Positions 862 to 9,601 of a stretch of 40,229 nt of DNA are shown here, one piece after another. Numbering within the stretch: the first letter of the stretch is position 1; each line of letters opens with the position of its first letter. Position numbers and translations under genes: made by a program. The notes beneath the pieces are model-generated. The model searched no databases. It was not told where the DNA came from and was given only the letters and a program-made list of their open reading frames with translations. This DNA comes from Armatimonadota bacterium (GTDB lineage: Bacteria > Armatimonadota > Armatimonadia > Armatimonadales > Armatimonadaceae): positions 1-40,229 of the forward strand of contig JACMJB010000166.1 of NCBI GenBank assembly GCA_014380815.1, in the 5' to 3' direction.

Positions 862-2121
862 ATGAGCGCGGCAGCGGCAAAGACGACCACGGCAAGAAAT
901 ACATCGGGCAAAGCGGCGGAGACAGTGGAAGCGACGGCTGCGAGCGGACCGGTCCGCCTGGGGCGCCGCACGAAAGAGCTGACCGCGAAGCTGCCCCCCG
1001 GCGCAATCGTGATTCTGGACCACGCCGACCTCGATACCGTCGCGGCGCGTGCTCTTGCACGCTGCAGGCCCGCCGCAGTCGTCAACAATCAACCGTTCGT
1101 TACGGGGCGTTACCCGAACCGGGGTCCCAGCCTGCTGCTGGAGGAGGGGATCCCGCTTTTTGACCTCGTCGGGAGCGAGCCGAGCACCCAAGCGGACCTT
1201 TTTACCCTGCTCTTCGATGGCGAATCCGTCCACATCGGCACTGATGGCACGATGCGGCGGCGAGAGAAGGACGAGGTGGTGGCGCAGCTTACGCCCCTGA
1301 CCCCGCTGGTGCTTGAGGAGAAGATGCAGGCCGCGAGGGCGAACCTCGACAGCGCCCTTTCCGACTTTGCCGAAAATACCCTGCACTACCTGCGCCGCGA
1401 CGAAGAACGGACACTGCTTCTCGATCCGGTGACCGTTCCGGATGTCCGCGCGGTCATTGCGGGGCGGCCTGTTCTTGTGGTGGTGCGCGGCGACAACTAC
1501 GAGGAGGACCTGCGACGGCTTTCGTCCTATCTGCGGGAGCAGAATCCGGTTGTGATCGCCGTGGACGGGGCGGCGGACGCCCTTCTGGCACTGGGGATCC
1601 GACCTCAAATTTTGCTTGGTGATATGGATTCTGTCAGCGATGCCGCACTCGGCTGTGGCGCGGAACTGATCGTCCACGCTTATTCCCGCCCTGTTGGCGG
1701 CGATCAGGCCACCCCGCTGGATGCGCCCGGCATGGCTCGCCTTCAAACGCTCGGACTGGCGGACGAGGCCAGACTGTTTCCGGTTGCGGGCACCAGCGAG
1801 GACGCTGCGCTGCTGCTGGCCTTTGAAAAGGGCGCGGACCTGATCGTGGCGGTCGGTACCCACACCAACCTGGAAGATTTTCTGGACAAAGGACGCGGCG
1901 GCATGGCCAGCACTTTTCTGGTACGCCTGAAAGTGGGAAGCCGCCTGGTGGACGCCCGCGGCGTTTCCCGGCTCTATACTGGGCGGCAGAAGACCGGGGG
2001 GATGTTCGGCTTTCTCGCGATCGCCGCCGCCTTCCCGGTGGTCGTTCTGCTGACGCAGACACCCTGGGGTCAGGTCGCGTGGCGCGCGGTCGCCGTCTGG
2101 CTTCGGCTGCGCCTTCCCTAG
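862..2121 (+). CDS. steA: SteA-like protein (putative cytokinetic ring protein, thiamine pyrophosphokinase fold)
   Basis: 419 residues. After a low-complexity Ala/Thr-rich start (1-29), the protein has the SteA layout: an N-terminal domain around residues 30-130, a charged helical stretch (150-185), a thiamine-pyrophosphokinase-like core with VIAVDGAADALLALGIRP and GDMDSVSD (about 231-260), a GGDQAT motif near 279, and a hydrophobic C-terminal helix (about 382-399), which would anchor it in the membrane with the bulk in the cytoplasm. In Corynebacterium, SteA works with SteB in cell separation and envelope integrity; that role is carried over by homology only. The partner family (MctB/SteB) is encoded at 4355, with an unrelated opposite-strand gene in between. 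Enzyme activity of the pyrophosphokinase-like fold has not been inferred. It could alternatively be described as a TPK-fold protein of unknown function. Confidence 0.82.
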   Translation: MSAAAAKTTTARNTSGKAAETVEATAASGPVRLGRRTKELTAKLPPGAIVILDHADLDTVAARALARCRPAAVVNNQPFVTGRYPNRGPSLLLEEGIPLFDLVGSEPSTQADLFTLLFDGESVHIGTDGTMRRREKDEVVAQLTPLTPLVLEEKMQAARANLDSALSDFAENTLHYLRRDEERTLLLDPVTVPDVRAVIAGRPVLVVVRGDNYEEDLRRLSSYLREQNPVVIAVDGAADALLALGIRPQILLGDMDSVSDAALGCGAELIVHAYSRPVGGDQATPLDAPGMARLQTLGLADEARLFPVAGTSEDAALLLAFEKGADLIVAVGTHTNLEDFLDKGRGGMASTFLVRLKVGSRLVDARGVSRLYTGRQKTGGMFGFLAIAAAFPVVVLLTQTPWGQVAWRAVAVWLRLRLP

Positions 2122-2140
2122 CCCGTGGCCTCCCGGTCTT

Positions 2141-4183
2141 TCACGAGGGCATCACGGAATAACCGACGTTGGTTGCATAGCCCAGCACGATCCAAAGGAC
2201 CGCGTTGATGACATCCCCCAGAATCAGGCCGAGGAACAGCGGCAGCGCACCCTGAAAGCCTTTCATCCCCCCGTAGCGCTGGATGATGGTCTTAAACAGC
2301 CAGCCCAGAAACGTCGAGAACCAGAGCACATTCATCGGGTAGGTGGAGGCGATCAGAAAACCGATGGGATGCAGGCCAAGGTTCATCCGGGCACGGGCCA
2401 GCAGCATCAGCAGCACCCCCCCGAGACCCGCGAAGATGTGAAGCGCATTCCCGATTGATCCCTGGTAGGGCAGTGCGGACGCCCCGGCAAGAAAACTGAT
2501 CGCCCGCGACGGCGCGTTCCGCATCCCCCAGCCGTCTTTCAGGCTGTCCCCACCGCCGCTGTAATACGGCAGCGCAATGGAGGTCGCGGCAGCGACCACC
2601 ACGCCGAGTCCCACCGAGACACACATCGCTCGAAACAGCAGACGCGGGTCGTAGGCGGCGGAATCTGCGGTCTTGGCTCCCATCAGCACCGATGCCGTCA
2701 TCATCTCGCGGGTATCGTAGATCAGCACATTCTCGAACTGTGTCACCGTGTAGAGCGGTCCGATCTTGAACGACGCGGTTCCGAAAAGCGGCGCGAGGAT
2801 CTCCAGTGTTCCGTATGGCTGCTGATCGAACAGCAACCCTGCCTGCGCGACGACCCACGAGATAACAGTGAACGCAAGCGTCACCATCAGTAATGACATC
2901 AGAGCATAGGCGATGGGCACCCCCGCCGCATAAAGCCATGCCCCAATGCCGAAGTAGCTTACCGCCAGCCCGATGATGGTTGCGCGGTAGGAGAACATCT
3001 CTTTGGAGTCGTCAATCGTGCTGGCAAGCGGTCCACCGATCGCTTTCTCCCAGACATTTCGGAAATGTCGCCGTCCCGTCCAGCAAGTCCAGGCAAGCAG
3101 GGCAAGACCGCCCCCGAACGCTTCCAGAGCGTGAAACTGCTTGCTCGTATATGCGGTGATCGGGCCGGGCGTTTCCCAGTTGTAGATGCCCGCCACCACA
3201 AGCTGTCCTTTGAAGAACAGGTAAAAGAACCACAGCGAAAAACAGACCTCCGAGGGCAGCAGGTAGGCCAGCCCGATTACCAGTGGGTAGAGCTTGGCGG
3301 GCAGCCCCCCCACGGCGTTCCACGGCGGCGAGGTGAGATATTGCCCCAGGTTCAGATCCGTGGTGATGTCCGGGATGCTGGGGTAGAGCAGGTGCAGTCC
3401 TTTGACCCCGTGCAGCACCGTGACCAGAAGCACCCCGGTCCAGAGCATCGGACTGCGCAGCAGATCGTTGAGGACCCGGCCCGGTTTCGGCTCCTCCGCG
3501 ATCAAGACCGGGAGCGTCACCAGCGGAAATGAAAACTTTTCGTTCTCGACCCACTGACGCCGCAGCAGATTCGCGAAGCAGAACGAAGCGGTAATAAAAA
3601 AGAGGACGAGAAGACCCCAGAAAAAGAGCGGTACCGCCCATGCGCCCCACGGCACCTGTTCCTGCCCCAGTGGGTAGCCACTGATGTAGGCGGTCGCGGC
3701 TTCTGCATCCGACAGGCGCAGCCAGGGCGGCGTACCGCCCCATACCTTCTGCTCCCAGTTGTTGGTGGCATTGGAGAGATACTGCGGCGCGGCGATATTG
3801 GGGATCAGGTAGCGCATCAGCCCCGACGACGGCAGGCCGGAGGCGACCAGGATCAGCGTCCAGATGGTCAGCAGTTCCGAGGATCGGAACGCCTTCGCGG
3901 GTACTGTCTTCCGAAGGACCCCGTTGACGAAAAACGCGAAGAAGAACAGCACGAACATCGCCCCGATGGGAAACTGATTCCCGGCGATAAAGGTGGCCCC
4001 GATCTTGAAATCGTTGTAGGGAGTCACTGCGCAGAAAAAGACCGCGAAAAGCAGGCCGATCAGGACCGCCCGGGCGCTCACTCCGCCGTGGACGGTGGGT
4101 TTTTCGGTGGTGGGAACGGCAGATGCCACGGAGGCGAAAGGGATGGCTTGGTTTGTGGCGGGGGAAGGCTCGCTTCGTTGCAA
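2141..4183 (-). CDS. DUF6785/DUF6784-type polytopic membrane protein
   Basis: 680 residues from the TTG start, with about 12-14 hydrophobic segments, among them ARAVLIGLLFAVFFCAVTP near the N-terminus, an FPIGAMFVLFFFAFFVNGVL helix, and further helices to the end. Conserved-looking polar stretches are PSSGLMRYLIPNI, NEKFSFPLVTLP and GQLVVAGIYNWE. The pattern matches the large membrane family annotated DUF6785 (N-terminal part) and DUF6784 (C-terminal part), common in Armatimonadota and Planctomycetota; its substrate is unknown, and a resemblance to oligopeptide-transporter-like proteins is only a guess. Start choice: an ATG at 4207 overlaps the -10 box TATAAT, so it would not be in the transcript. 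The in-frame TTG at 4183 has an AGGAG ribosome site nine bases upstream. The gene converges on steA with 19 bases between stops. Confidence 0.75.
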   Translation of the reverse strand: MQRSEPSPATNQAIPFASVASAVPTTEKPTVHGGVSARAVLIGLLFAVFFCAVTPYNDFKIGATFIAGNQFPIGAMFVLFFFAFFVNGVLRKTVPAKAFRSSELLTIWTLILVASGLPSSGLMRYLIPNIAAPQYLSNATNNWEQKVWGGTPPWLRLSDAEAATAYISGYPLGQEQVPWGAWAVPLFFWGLLVLFFITASFCFANLLRRQWVENEKFSFPLVTLPVLIAEEPKPGRVLNDLLRSPMLWTGVLLVTVLHGVKGLHLLYPSIPDITTDLNLGQYLTSPPWNAVGGLPAKLYPLVIGLAYLLPSEVCFSLWFFYLFFKGQLVVAGIYNWETPGPITAYTSKQFHALEAFGGGLALLAWTCWTGRRHFRNVWEKAIGGPLASTIDDSKEMFSYRATIIGLAVSYFGIGAWLYAAGVPIAYALMSLLMVTLAFTVISWVVAQAGLLFDQQPYGTLEILAPLFGTASFKIGPLYTVTQFENVLIYDTREMMTASVLMGAKTADSAAYDPRLLFRAMCVSVGLGVVVAAATSIALPYYSGGGDSLKDGWGMRNAPSRAISFLAGASALPYQGSIGNALHIFAGLGGVLLMLLARARMNLGLHPIGFLIASTYPMNVLWFSTFLGWLFKTIIQRYGGMKGFQGALPLFLGLILGDVINAVLWIVLGYATNVGYSVMPS

Positions 4184-4205
4184 CGGTTCTGGCTCCTGAC
4201 AGCCC

Positions 4206-4235
4206 ATTATAAGGACCGGAGGCACTCTCTGTCCA
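4206..4235 (-). promoter_or_regulatory. sigma70 promoter for the DUF6785-type gene
   Basis: Minus strand: -35 TGGACA (4235-4230), 18-base spacer, -10 TATAAT (4211-4206). Transcription should begin near 4199, just upstream of the AGGAG (4197-4193) and the TTG start at 4183. This promoter is what decides the start codon. Confidence 0.65.
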
Positions 4236-4273
4236 ATCGCCGCCCGCGGCTGGGGTGGCCTTTGGGCATCTGC

Positions 4274-4302
4274 TGGAGAAGCGGGCACGGATTTGCTACA
4301 AT
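4274..4302 (+). promoter_or_regulatory. Extended -10 promoter for the mctB-GT2-GT4 operon
   Basis: TGC immediately precedes a -10 TACAAT (4297-4302), and TGGAGA (4274-4279) sits 17 bases upstream as a weak -35. It fires away from the minus-strand promoter at 4206-4235, leaving a leader of about 45 nt before the ATG at 4355. Confidence 0.55.
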
Positions 4303-4354
4303 GGGACGGGGGGCTTACCAACCTCCTGCCGTTTTGGGGAGACCGACCCGTGAC

Positions 4355-5350
4355 ATGAACTCGGATATCCGCTACCACATCGCCTCGCTGGCAGCCGTGT
4401 TTCTCGCTCTTGGCATCGGTATCCTGGTCGGGACCGCATTTGTCGGCGCGCCGGTCGTGCAACGTCAGACAAGCCTGATCCGGCGCCTGGAGACCAATGT
4501 CGGCGACCTGCGGCGCGACACGGCGGCACGCGACAACACGGAGAGGGCACTTGCGGACCTCGTGCCGGGCATCCTTCACGGGAAACTGGCGGGACGCCGC
4601 ATACTGGTGGTCCAAACTGGCGGCTACCGGGACGCCACGGATGCCGCCGTGGAGGCTCTGCAGCAGGCCGGAGCCTCCACCGTCGCGCGGGCAATCCTGC
4701 CGACCGACACCTGGCGGCGCGAGATGAGCGCGGCGACCGCGGCGATCTCAGACGGAGATACGATCGCCGAGGCGGTCCGCGCCGAGGCACGGCAGCTTGC
4801 TCCCCTGCTGCTGCGCGGTGACCCCGGCGGGGTCTTCAGCGAGCCGCTGCAGCCGTACCGGGATCGGGGGCTGGTGGTCTCGGATACACCGCTGACCGGG
4901 GGACCATTCCGACTGATCGTGCTGGTGGGTGGGACTTCCCTCGCCGCTGCGCTGACTGGCGAGACGGACGATTCCGCGCTGCAGACGTTTCTTCGGCAGC
5001 GGGATACGCCCCTGATCGAGACGTGGGCGGCGCGCGGCGTGACCGTTGTCGGCGTGGAGCCGGTCGAGGCGGAAGTCTCGTTCCTGAGGCTTTACCAGAG
5101 CGCTGGTCTCTCCACCATTGATGCCATGGACCGAGCGGCCGGGAAGATTGCCCTGCCGTTCGCGCTTCTTGGAGAAAAGGGCAGCTACGGACTGCGCCCC
5201 GCCGCCGACCGCGCCCTACCCGCATCGCTGGAAACGCTTCGTCTTGCGCCGCCGCCCCCCTCCCCCGCCGCCCCTCCCCTTCCACGGGGTCCTGGCTCCC
5301 CGGTTCCCACCTCTCCGGTTCTTAGCTCTCCGGGTCCTGACACACTGTGA
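4355..5350 (+). CDS. mctB: MctB/SteB-like single-span envelope protein (copper transporter family)
   Basis: 331 residues. The ATG at 4355 is chosen over the upstream in-frame ATG at 4088 because it gives the family-typical start MNSDIRYHIASLAAVFLALG, a short polar N-terminus running into one transmembrane helix (about 9-32). A coiled-coil-like region follows (QRQTSLIRRLETNVGDLRRD), then an alpha/beta extracytoplasmic domain (about 80-290) and a Pro/Ser-rich tail made from a DNA tandem repeat. Family names differ: MctB in Mycobacterium (reported in copper handling) and SteB in Corynebacterium (partner of SteA in cell separation). Because steA is the neighbour, the SteB role seems the better working model. 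The stop overlaps the GTG of the next gene by four bases (GTGA), so translation is probably coupled. Confidence 0.78.
   Translation: MNSDIRYHIASLAAVFLALGIGILVGTAFVGAPVVQRQTSLIRRLETNVGDLRRDTAARDNTERALADLVPGILHGKLAGRRILVVQTGGYRDATDAAVEALQQAGASTVARAILPTDTWRREMSAATAAISDGDTIAEAVRAEARQLAPLLLRGDPGGVFSEPLQPYRDRGLVVSDTPLTGGPFRLIVLVGGTSLAAALTGETDDSALQTFLRQRDTPLIETWAARGVTVVGVEPVEAEVSFLRLYQSAGLSTIDAMDRAAGKIALPFALLGEKGSYGLRPAADRALPASLETLRLAPPPPSPAAPPLPRGPGSPVPTSPVLSSPGPDTL
5287..5346 (+). repeat. Four 15-bp degenerate tandem repeats in the 3' end of the mctB-like gene
   Basis: Units: GGGTCCTGGCTCCCC, GGTTCCCACCTCTCC, GGTTCTTAGCTCTCC and GGGTCCTGACACACT. Being 15 bases long they keep frame and encode pentapeptides GPGSP, VPTSP, VLSSP, GPDTL at the extreme C-terminus. 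The last unit runs up to the first base of the stop/start overlap with the downstream gene. Confidence 0.75.
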
Positions 5351-6081
5351 GCGCCGCAGATCAGGATCTTTCGGTCTCCGTCATCATTCCGGCCTACAAC
5401 GAAGCCGACCGGATCGCGTCCACCGTGACCGCCGCTCACCAACTGCCGGGAGTTCGCGAAGTTGTCGTCGTGGATGATGGCTCGTCCGATGCCACCGGTG
5501 ATGCGGCGGCGAGAATGGGCGCACGCGTCGTCTCCCTGACCCGAAATCGTGGAAAGGCACGAGCCATGGAGGCGGGCGCGGAGGCCGCTGCCTTCCCCCT
5601 CCTTCTTTTTTTGGACGCGGATCTGGGCGATACCGCCCGCGAGGCCGCCGTTCTTATCCCCCCGGTCCAGGCGGGCGAAGCGGATATGACGATCGCAGTG
5701 TTTCCCACCATTCCGGGGCGAGGCGGCGGGATGGGCCTGGTCGTTCGCCTTTCTCGCTGGGGGGTACAGCGTCTCACAGGGAGGCGACTCGACGCCCCGC
5801 TTTCCGGTCAGCGCTGCCTGCGCCGGGGGGTATTGGAGACGGCTCGCCCCCTTGCAAGCGGATTTGGAGTCGAGACGGCACTGGATATTGATGCTCTCCG
5901 CGCCGGGTGGGTGGTCCGCGAGATCTTGACTCGAATGGATCACCGCGTCACCGGGAATGATCTTCGCGCCCGCCTTCATCGCGCCCGCCAGCTCCGTGAT
6001 GTCGCGCGGGCGCTTTTGTCCCGCCTGCTTCACCGACCACGAACAAGACCGGGACATTCCTCGGTTTCAAGGGCATCTTGA
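5347..6081 (+). CDS. Family 2 glycosyltransferase (polyprenyl-phosphate sugar transferase type)
   Basis: 244 residues, GTG start overlapping the mctB stop by four bases. GT-A fold signature: LSVSVIIPAYNEADRIASTV at about 7-26, VVVVDDGSSDATGDAA, then LTRNRGKARAMEAG and the metal-binding FLDADLGD. SGQRCLRR and GFGVETALDIDALRAGW in the second half fit dolichyl/polyprenyl-phosphate-glucose or mannose synthase-like enzymes that act on the cytoplasmic face. No C-terminal membrane helices are present, only a basic tail (LLSRLLHRPR). In the operon it lies between an MctB/SteB-like envelope protein and a lipid-linked sugar-phosphate transferase, so it probably builds an envelope glycan or lipid carrier; the sugar cannot be read from sequence. 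Confidence 0.85.
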   Translation: MSAADQDLSVSVIIPAYNEADRIASTVTAAHQLPGVREVVVVDDGSSDATGDAAARMGARVVSLTRNRGKARAMEAGAEAAAFPLLLFLDADLGDTAREAAVLIPPVQAGEADMTIAVFPTIPGRGGGMGLVVRLSRWGVQRLTGRRLDAPLSGQRCLRRGVLETARPLASGFGVETALDIDALRAGWVVREILTRMDHRVTGNDLRARLHRARQLRDVARALLSRLLHRPRTRPGHSSVSRAS

Positions 6082-6935
6082 GCGCCCTTCTGCTGCTGCC
6101 AAGCCTCCTGCTGCTCGGCCTGGTGTCGGTGCTGCTTGCCTTCGCGCCGACGATCTCCCGTGCCCTCTGCCGATCTGGGGGTTTGGTCAGGCCGAACTTT
6201 CGCGGCAATCTCATCCCCGCCTCTACGGGCCTGACCTTCCTGCTGATCCTGATGCCGGTTTACGCCGCGCTGCTCTTCTGGCCTCTGTTTCGGCGCGATG
6301 CGGCTCTGTATCTTCTGGTGGTTACCTCATTTGGCCTGCTGGGTCTGGCGGACGACCGGTGGGGCAGCCGAACAGTCGGCGGCTTTCGAGGGCATCTGCG
6401 CTCACTGCTCACCCCGCACCCAACGACAGGCGCACTGAAACTGGTCGGAGGCGGCGGGGTCGCGTTGATCGCCTCCGCGGTGGTTCATGCCCCAGTTTCC
6501 CGCTCTCTGGTGGTGTTGCTCCTATTCTTCGCGGATGCCCTTCTGATCGCCCTTTGCGCGAATGCCCTGAATCTGCTGGATCTGCGGCCTGGTCGAGCAC
6601 AGTTCGGCTTCGCGCTCCTGCTGCTGCCTTCGCTGCTGACCGCCTTTCTGCACCAGGAGCCACAGGGAATCCTGCCATTTGGGGCTGGCATCGCCGCGCT
6701 TCGCGAGTGGCGCGCGGATTCCCGCGCGGACACGATGATGGGAGACACCGGGTCCAATCTACTGGGTGCGGCAGCGGGTTTAAGCGCGGTTCTCTTTTTG
6801 CCGCTGGGGGGACGCCTGCTGCTGCTGGTTCTGGTGATCGCGCTCAATACCGCCTCGGAACGGTTTTCCCTTACGCGGCTGATCGCGGAGTCGCCGGTCT
6901 TAAATTCACTGGATCGGCTCCTTGGAGCACGGTAA
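6078..6935 (+). CDS. MraY/WecA-like glycosyl-phosphoryl transferase (GT4 family membrane enzyme)
   Basis: 285 residues, TTG start overlapping the preceding stop (TTGA). Eight or nine hydrophobic helices. Family motifs: RPNFRGNLIPASTGLTFLL early, GLADDRWGSRTVGGFRGHL (the paired Asp of the catalytic cytoplasmic loop) around 93-111, NALNLLDLRPGRA around 171, and MMGDTGSNLLGA around 226. These enzymes transfer a sugar-1-phosphate from a UDP-sugar to undecaprenyl phosphate. It is shorter than typical MraY (about 320-360) and its motifs differ, so it is probably a paralogue in the SteA-associated cluster rather than the essential peptidoglycan enzyme. Three genes in tight overlap suggest fixed stoichiometry. 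Confidence 0.82.
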   Translation: MSALLLLPSLLLLGLVSVLLAFAPTISRALCRSGGLVRPNFRGNLIPASTGLTFLLILMPVYAALLFWPLFRRDAALYLLVVTSFGLLGLADDRWGSRTVGGFRGHLRSLLTPHPTTGALKLVGGGGVALIASAVVHAPVSRSLVVLLLFFADALLIALCANALNLLDLRPGRAQFGFALLLLPSLLTAFLHQEPQGILPFGAGIAALREWRADSRADTMMGDTGSNLLGAAAGLSAVLFLPLGGRLLLLVLVIALNTASERFSLTRLIAESPVLNSLDRLLGAR

Positions 6936-8710: not shown

Positions 8711-9601
8711 ATGACACTCTCCGCCCCGTCCGACCAGACGCCGCGACGCCTGGTGACGCACAACGTCGTGCATCTTCACTTGAAGCCGACCCGCAGTGCC
8801 GAAATGGTCTCGCAAACCCTGATCGGGCACAGCGTCACCGTGTTGGAGGAGCAGGAGGGCTGGGCACGTGTCCAGACCGACGACACATATCGTGGCTGGG
8901 CTGAAACGCGGTGGCTGTCGCCAGACCTCGGTGTGGCGGGACTGATCTCCGTGATCACCCCGTTCCTGGAAGTGCGCACGAAGCCGCAGGAAGACGCCCC
9001 TCTGGTCTCGCGGCTCTCCATCGGCTCGCGCATCGTGCCGGTGCAGCGGCTGGGGGAGGGTGACGGCTGGGATGGCTGGGCGACCGTCCACCTGCCCTCG
9101 GATCTTGCCGCGACCTACTACGCGCTTGCCGCCTCCTTTCCTCGCGAGATGCAGCACCGGGACTCGTTCCATCTGGGCACAAGGGCGGCGGAATGGGCGA
9201 CAAGCTTTTTGGGCACTCCATATCTCTGGGGCGGGTCGTCGTCGTTTGGGCTGGACTGCTCCGGCTTCGTGCAGCTTTGCTACCGTCTGGCAGGGATCAC
9301 GCTGCGGCGCGATGCGGACATTCAGCGCGAGGATCCCCGCTTCGAGCCAGTCGCCTTCGATTCGCTTCTGCCAGGCGATCTTGTCTTCTTCGGGAAGCCG
9401 GACCGTATCACCCATGTCGGTATGCACTCTGCGGGCAGGACCGGCGATGCCGGGACCTTTGTTCATTCCGCAGGGGGGGCTGGGGTGATCGTCAGCCCCT
9501 GGGGTGATCCGATGTATTCCCCCGGTTACGTGGATGCTCGCCGCCTTATTCCGGCCCGCGCATCGGAACCGGTCACGCGCCATGAGGCAGAGGACCGTTA
9601 G
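8711..9601 (+). CDS. NlpC/P60 (C40) peptidase with tandem SH3-like domains
   Basis: 296 residues. Two bacterial SH3-like modules (about 14-70, ending GWAETRWLS, and 78-130) precede an NlpC/P60 domain (about 155-280). The catalytic set is visible: Cys183 in GLDCSGFVQLCYRLAG, His235 in ITHVGMHS and His252 in FVHSAGG; LLPGDLVFFG is the usual family strand. Such enzymes cut gamma-D-glutamyl-diamino acid bonds in peptidoglycan peptides; the two-SH3 architecture resembles YkfC-type enzymes. There is no signal peptide from this start and no alternative upstream start codon was noticed, so either the enzyme is cytoplasmic (cell-wall recycling) or export uses another route. It heads a tight plus-strand group with YgfZ-like, anchored and deacetylase genes. 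Confidence 0.9.
   Translation: MTLSAPSDQTPRRLVTHNVVHLHLKPTRSAEMVSQTLIGHSVTVLEEQEGWARVQTDDTYRGWAETRWLSPDLGVAGLISVITPFLEVRTKPQEDAPLVSRLSIGSRIVPVQRLGEGDGWDGWATVHLPSDLAATYYALAASFPREMQHRDSFHLGTRAAEWATSFLGTPYLWGGSSSFGLDCSGFVQLCYRLAGITLRRDADIQREDPRFEPVAFDSLLPGDLVFFGKPDRITHVGMHSAGRTGDAGTFVHSAGGAGVIVSPWGDPMYSPGYVDARRLIPARASEPVTRHEAEDR

Follow-up and report, generated by a model that had tools for sequence, protein, structure and literature searches.

The window analysed here covers positions 1-40,229 of contig JACMJB010000166.1 (assembly GCA_014380815.1) from an Armatimonadota bacterium, and close to its start it encodes SteA, SteB (also named MctB), a glycosyltransferase of family 2 (GT2) and a PNPT, a protein of the MraY/WecA superfamily. 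In mycobacteria and corynebacteria SteAB is known to regulate cell separation; a 2026 description holds it to be largely restricted to Actinobacteria and its nucleotide ligand to be unknown. Across three phyla the pairing of SteA with this type of PNPT is near-obligate at the genome level, even when the two genes are unlinked, and the data suggest that the original job of SteA and SteB was tied to envelope building. The features of the locus are as follows.

862-2121, plus strand: steA, 419 amino acids; matches NF040608, PF12555 and, in part, TIGR01378
2141-4246, minus strand: DUF6785/DUF6784 membrane protein; PF20581 467 bits, PF20580 88 bits
4247-4354, no strand: intergenic region flanked by the divergent DUF6785 and mctB genes, from the sequence and the gene directions
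4355-5350, plus strand: mctB/steB; PF11382 120 bits
5347-6081, plus strand: GT2 glycosyltransferase; PF00535
6078-6935, plus strand: PNPT of the MraY/WecA superfamily, 285 amino acids; family-profile match to MraY and AlphaFold2 fold

In line with the first-pass annotation of this DNA, a single opposite-strand gene, that of the DUF6785/DUF6784 protein, separates steA from mctB, and mctB is joined to the GT2 and PNPT genes by short overlaps that read GTGA at 5347-5350 (mctB/GT2) and TTGA at 6078-6081 (GT2/PNPT). The mctB-GT2-PNPT operon presumably has its promoter in the intergenic region. DUF6785 proteins are common in Armatimonadota. Matches to this family are found in none of 80 Armatimonadota SteA loci, and in the nearest relative (L034, of the same family as the window) steA and mctB are 22 nucleotides apart with no gene between them, and therefore the DUF6785 gene is read as a local insertion that splits the cassette. 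It lies outside the conserved module and the insertion is confined to the lineage of the window. Divergent from steA, the minus strand at 1-655 reads as the N-terminal portion of a regulator of the TetR type (LEAARTRFLHYSYKKTTIDEIAQDAGVGKGTVYLYF).

The window SteA matches the full-length equivalog model NF040608 with 409 bits (cut-off 150) over residues 28-416 of 419, and PF12555, which describes the C-terminal membrane segment, with 32.7 bits (cut-off 26.4), so that the family domains looked for by profile search are present. Hydropathy places the C-terminal transmembrane (TM) helix at about residues 379-397, and the protein aligns to M. tuberculosis SteA (9hmy) over 325 residues. MctB covers positions 3-306 of the 306 in PF11382, and its profile matches the structures of M. 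tuberculosis SteB (9m9z, 9hle) and C. glutamicum SteB (8au6) at 1e-14 to 1e-15; by hydropathy it has a single N-terminal TM segment at about residues 12-30 followed by an extracytoplasmic domain. The GT2 matches PF00535 with 83.8 bits (cut-off 23.3, 1.8e-23), and its nearest solved relatives are glucosyl-3-phosphoglycerate synthase (GpgS), dolichyl-P-mannose synthase (DPMS) and ArnC. Taken alone, the PNPT scores 25.9 bits against the PF00953 cut-off of 27, while the profile of its family hits structures of MraY (2e-7). Its AlphaFold2 model (pLDDT 92, pTM 0.90) is matched by Foldseek to MraY and human DPAGT1 with a probability of 1.00 (MraY 8cxr at 7e-5; TM-score up to 0.66). The protein, which belongs to a distinct family of the superfamily, lacks the MraY motifs DGxDGLA and HHH, and the genome of the window encodes a separate true MraY (L117) as well as a second PNPT (L118).

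Conserved neighbourhood and genome-level pairing

Among the 80 Armatimonadota SteA loci, MctB adjoins in 68, GT2 in 60 and PNPT in 52, and all four genes are present in 51; many of the loci with an incomplete cassette stop at contig borders. A second scan was anchored on the PNPT, using an alignment (A5) and the pattern NL[LF]DLRPGR and making no use of SteA in the selection. Of its best 80 loci, which belong to Bacillota (Clostridia, Tissierellia and one Bacilli), Actinomycetota and Armatimonadota, 74 had enough upstream sequence to be tested. SteA is found in 73 of these, MctB in 72 and GT2 in 71, and the order steA-mctB-GT2-PNPT on one strand is kept in 70. As this gene order is found again and again across the three phyla, the arrangement is not due to chance. 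The neighbourhood comparison had been set beforehand as the test that could refute the first-pass annotation, and the two glycosyl enzymes do co-occur with SteA and MctB. The association extends to gene fusion, as GT2 and PNPT form one protein in six loci (L068, L099, L106, L155, L160 and L201). The AlphaFold2 model of the L160 fusion has confident domains, but is uninformative on how they dock because of its pTM of 0.56 and weak linker.

For whole genomes, SteA was called by NF040608 and PNPT by A5 at E <= 1e-20. Among 512 genomes of the three phyla the two proteins occur together in 302 and apart in 14, and both are absent from 196. The counts for both, SteA only, PNPT only and neither are 92/5/1/53 in Armatimonadota, 159/2/1/88 in Clostridia-type Bacillota (the phylum of Thermoanaerobacterium) and 51/4/1/55 in Actinomycetota. 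Matthews correlation coefficients are 0.91-0.97 across the phyla; these and the Fisher tests, which were also computed, are descriptive rather than proof since the genomes are related. Both of the SteA-only Bacillota genomes represent contig ends. SteA and PNPT are retained together in several Armatimonadota genomes in which they lie far apart (G062, G027 and G090, each on a single contig), and in Armatimonadota families of mixed composition they are missing together (f1, G041; f7, G005 and G046; f15, G014).

MctB shows the same pattern of co-occurrence in Bacillota, where it is present in 160 of 250 genomes and is kept even when relocated away from SteA, for example at a distance of 1.4 Mb (G268) or 410 kb (G264). 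In 24 Bacillota loci the stretch that separates SteA from PNPT can fit no more than one gene, and those inspected mostly hold GT2 alone. That SteB might be dispensable in Bacillota was considered and dropped because a genome-wide search located MctB elsewhere in nearly all such genomes, leaving one genome (G165) and another with short contigs (G237) as exceptions. G165 has no SteB in the genome and keeps PNPT, and its SteA lacks the TM segment, which is preceded by a stop codon that could also be a sequencing error. Two genomes of family f25 (G038, G142), judged for MctB by the neighbourhood only, have neither SteB nor GT2 nearby and keep PNPT, and their SteAs likewise lack the TM segment. In M. 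tuberculosis and C. glutamicum SteA is known to form a homodimer and, together with SteB, a division-site complex (PMC12977500, PMC6705760), and the loss of the TM segment from SteAs with no SteB in the genome or none adjoining fits the TM bundle reported for the two proteins. In the f25 locus L203 (G038) the PNPT gene lies directly 3' of steA; L204 is the locus of G142.

An upstream neighbourhood with recN and nadK is shared between phyla and the SteA tree broadly follows the phyla, both of which suggest ancient vertical descent and not a recent transfer. In one locus (L165), from a metagenome-assembled genome titled Actinobacteria, SteA falls among Bacillota and the neighbouring genes are Bacillota- or armatimonad-like, so that the title may be wrong. 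No SteA homologues were found on IMG/VR contigs and no cassette PNPT on plasmids; two PLSDB entries with SteA matches, NZ_CP154629.1 (2.6 Mb) and NZ_LT559118.1 (11.9 Mb), are labelled as plasmids and appear to be whole chromosomes.

The genes around PNPT in Actinomycetota include a full MurJ (TIGR01695, 266.6 bits, cut-off 235.55), GT-B glycosyltransferases, a second GT2 and PMT_2 (PMT-like) genes, and in one armatimonad locus (L096) a gene for a MATE/MurJ-like exporter lies between GT2 and PNPT. Judged by their families, GT2, PNPT, MurJ, GT-B and PMT_2 are what one would expect to find in a polyprenyl-linked saccharide pathway, in which the PNPT probably loads a sugar onto a membrane lipid. 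Several further genes were noted nearby. Proteins of about 750 amino acids adjoin PNPT in Actinomycetota (L247:6264-8450; L245:3604-5880, minus strand; L249:12651-14906) and have no Pfam match, nor, for those of L247 and L245, any NCBIfam match; they could serve the pathway as ligase, polymerase or surface component. In Armatimonadota family f18, GT2 and PNPT are separated by a gene with a rhomboid domain (L085:6586-7356, minus strand; L083, L090, L093). In most Bacillota loci a DUF3866 gene (PF12982) lies 3' of PNPT (L120:12516-13631; 53 non-armatimonad loci), and DUF3866 also occurs in L239 of Actinomycetota.

The nucleotide pocket of SteA

SteA has been described to contain a nucleotide pocket resembling that of thiamine pyrophosphokinase (TPK); the C. 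glutamicum protein is stabilised by UDP and GDP, its ligand being unidentified, and nucleotide binding by the M. tuberculosis protein was inconclusive (PMC12977500). The TPK-like motifs of the window SteA are VRG, DGAADALL, GDMDSVS, GTSED and GTHTNLEDFLDKGRGGMAST, and it scores 33 bits with TIGR01378, below the cut-off of 76.4 and over about 49 residues. In an alignment of about 180 SteAs, a few loci of which were entered twice, VRG, DGGADAL, GDMDS[VI][ST], GTSED and FLxKGRxGM are near-invariant. These motifs are degenerate in all PNPT-minus actinobacterial SteAs examined, which come from M. tuberculosis, C. glutamicum, Tsukamurella and four other genomes; that the three named organisms have no PNPT is taken from the locus and from general background. 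The seven SteAs form one clade (SH-aLRT 100) nested within the PNPT-plus Actinomycetota, so that the SteAs studied so far, of the Mycobacteriales type, come from one derived lineage that lost PNPT and whose pocket decayed.

Proposed mechanism and alternative explanations

It is proposed, as the reading we consider probable, that SteA, SteB/MctB, GT2 and the MraY-fold PNPT belong to a single envelope module of ancient origin, in which SteA responds to or uses a nucleotide or nucleotide-sugar from the pathway and signals outward through SteB. The PNPT would transfer a sugar-phosphate to polyprenyl phosphate on the inner side of the membrane, GT2 (in Actinomycetota together with further glycosyltransferases) would extend the lipid-linked sugar, and a MurJ/MATE-type flippase would export the glycan. 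SteA, cytoplasmic and anchored by its TM segment, would read (or use) the pathway nucleotide or nucleotide-sugar in its TPK-like pocket and pass its state through the SteA/SteB TM bundle to SteB, the direction of the signal being presumed. The outer domain of SteB may then control an envelope enzyme, the hydrolase RipA in Mycobacteriales and a putative counterpart elsewhere. In the Mycobacteriales-type clade PNPT would have been lost and the pocket would have decayed, leaving the SteAB-RipA arm. The first-pass annotation had proposed an ancestral module of SteA-SteB with a lipid-linked sugar pathway, which gains support from the near-exceptionless co-occurrence across phyla, the enzymatic roles of GT2 and PNPT being predicted; it had not foreseen the near-obligate pairing, the pocket degeneracy in model organisms or the local insertion of the DUF6785 gene. 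More tentative is a fuller version, possible although we would not count on it, in which the polyprenyl-linked glycan pathway operates in three phyla, the DLRPGR-type PNPT may differ from MraY in its use of UDP, SteA is a dedicated sensor or enzyme for a nucleotide or nucleotide-sugar, and mycobacterial SteAB-RipA is a relic without the pathway and with a decayed SteA pocket.

Several points weigh against the proposed module. The genomes in the co-occurrence tables are not phylogenetically independent, and the correlation of pocket decay with PNPT loss is a single evolutionary event because the PNPT-minus degenerate state is confined to one clade. Strict coupling is further weakened by two PNPT-negative Armatimonadota genomes (G115 and G150; L052 and L058) that keep an intact pocket. 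Some loci lack GT2 (L159, L196), and the activities and substrates of PNPT and GT2 are predictions from sequence. No RipA-like coiled-coil NlpC/P60 gene was found adjoining the module, and by eye none of four inspected NlpC/P60 proteins, out of five in the genome of the window, has a coiled coil. Conflicting mycobacterial data (TapA/MtrAB) also exist, SteA having been reported to act without SteB, via MtrAB (PMC12338722).

An alternative gives SteA an enzymatic role in the pathway, as a diphosphokinase of the TPK type or a nucleotide-sugar processing enzyme that makes or regenerates a PNPT substrate, the mycobacterial protein being a pseudo-enzyme scaffold. The thiamine diphosphokinase model finds a match in each of the 24 armatimonad SteAs aligned (best 2.5e-11). 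PNPT-plus SteAs hardly vary in the motifs DGGADAL...GDxDSxS and TSED, which the PNPT-minus clade has lost, and among the SteAs scored against TPK the PNPT-plus ones reach 33-41 bits and the PNPT-minus ones 18-24. However, every SteA score lies far under the TPK cut-off of 76.4 and covers only about 50 residues, and C. glutamicum SteA is stabilised by GDP and UDP but not by ADP or triphosphates (PMC12977500). A sensor fits better than an enzyme because SteA is membrane-anchored and complexed with SteB, and the enzymatic role is considered unlikely. The shared operon could also reflect co-expression only, with SteAB controlling cell separation while PNPT and GT2 build an unrelated surface polymer at the same time. 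The housekeeping genes in the neighbourhood (recN, nadK, argR, NUDIX, xerD and pyrG) make adjacency alone weak evidence for a shared function, yet recN, nadK and xerD are variable whereas SteA, MctB and PNPT are kept together even when unlinked, and the pocket decayed in the sole clade that lost PNPT; this explanation is rated as quite improbable. It is hardly credible that MctB acts as a copper transporter of the outer membrane in a module for metal homeostasis, for which the Pfam name of PF11382 is the sole argument. MctB has a single N-terminal TM segment and is homologous to the SteB structures, its partners are sugar enzymes and metal genes do not recur among the nameable neighbours, and structural work on the M. 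tuberculosis proteins published in 2026 argues against a copper role (PMC12977500). The first-pass annotation, which had doubted copper as a core role, agrees with that work, and the rejection of copper is hence already in print and not new.

A role in sporulation has been suggested from a spo0A neighbourhood (PMC12977500). As a core role it is rejected, the module being present also in Armatimonadota, Actinomycetota and Peptostreptococcus. The last of these is non-sporulating.

If the proposed module is real, a specific lipid-linked sugar pathway is the place to look for the ligand of SteA, for which search the SteAs of Clostridia and Armatimonadota with their intact pocket would be better proteins, and a possible reason is at hand for the inconclusive nucleotide binding with M. 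tuberculosis SteA. A PNPT family that a large proportion of Clostridia and Armatimonadota encode would also gain a clear functional partner. The literature search, which covered few subscription papers, most of them being outside its reach, found no description of the four-gene SteA-SteB-GT2-PNPT module, of its coupling across three phyla, of the fusions or of pocket decay in the model clade.

Comparison with known systems

The SteA-SteB complex and its RipA branch are known from Mycobacteriales (PMC12977500, PMC6705760). One NlpC/P60 hydrolase with SH3 domains is encoded in the window (8711-9601, plus strand; PF00877, PF08239) and was rejected as a partner, as it has no RipA-like coiled coil and is not syntenic, with matches in only 5 of 80 loci. 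The window pair belongs to the same families as the mycobacteriales pairs (Rv1697-Rv1698/MctB; Cg1603-Cg1604) and shares their gene order and topology, with the TM segment C-terminal in SteA and N-terminal in SteB. Unlike them, it is joined to GT2 and PNPT and retains an intact pocket (GDMDS, GTSED) where M. tuberculosis has GDPDQ/GSATD and C. glutamicum GNPTG/NSSTD, and no adjoining RipA-type partner was found.

With thiamine pyrophosphokinase SteA shares the nucleotide half (DGGADAL...GDMDSVS), but it has an N-terminal domain, a C-terminal motif and a TM segment of its own and lies far under the TPK cut-off. The GT2 belongs to the same PF00535 GT-A fold family as AglJ, DPMS, ArnC and GpgS, but reaches no equivalog cut-off and is closely linked or fused to PNPT. 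The PNPT shares its fold and the conserved DD, NxxNxxD and GD positions with MraY, WecA and DPAGT1, whereas in comparison with MraY it carries NxxNLLDLRPGRA in place of NxxNxxDGxDGLA, lacks the C-terminal HHH and is shorter (285 amino acids).

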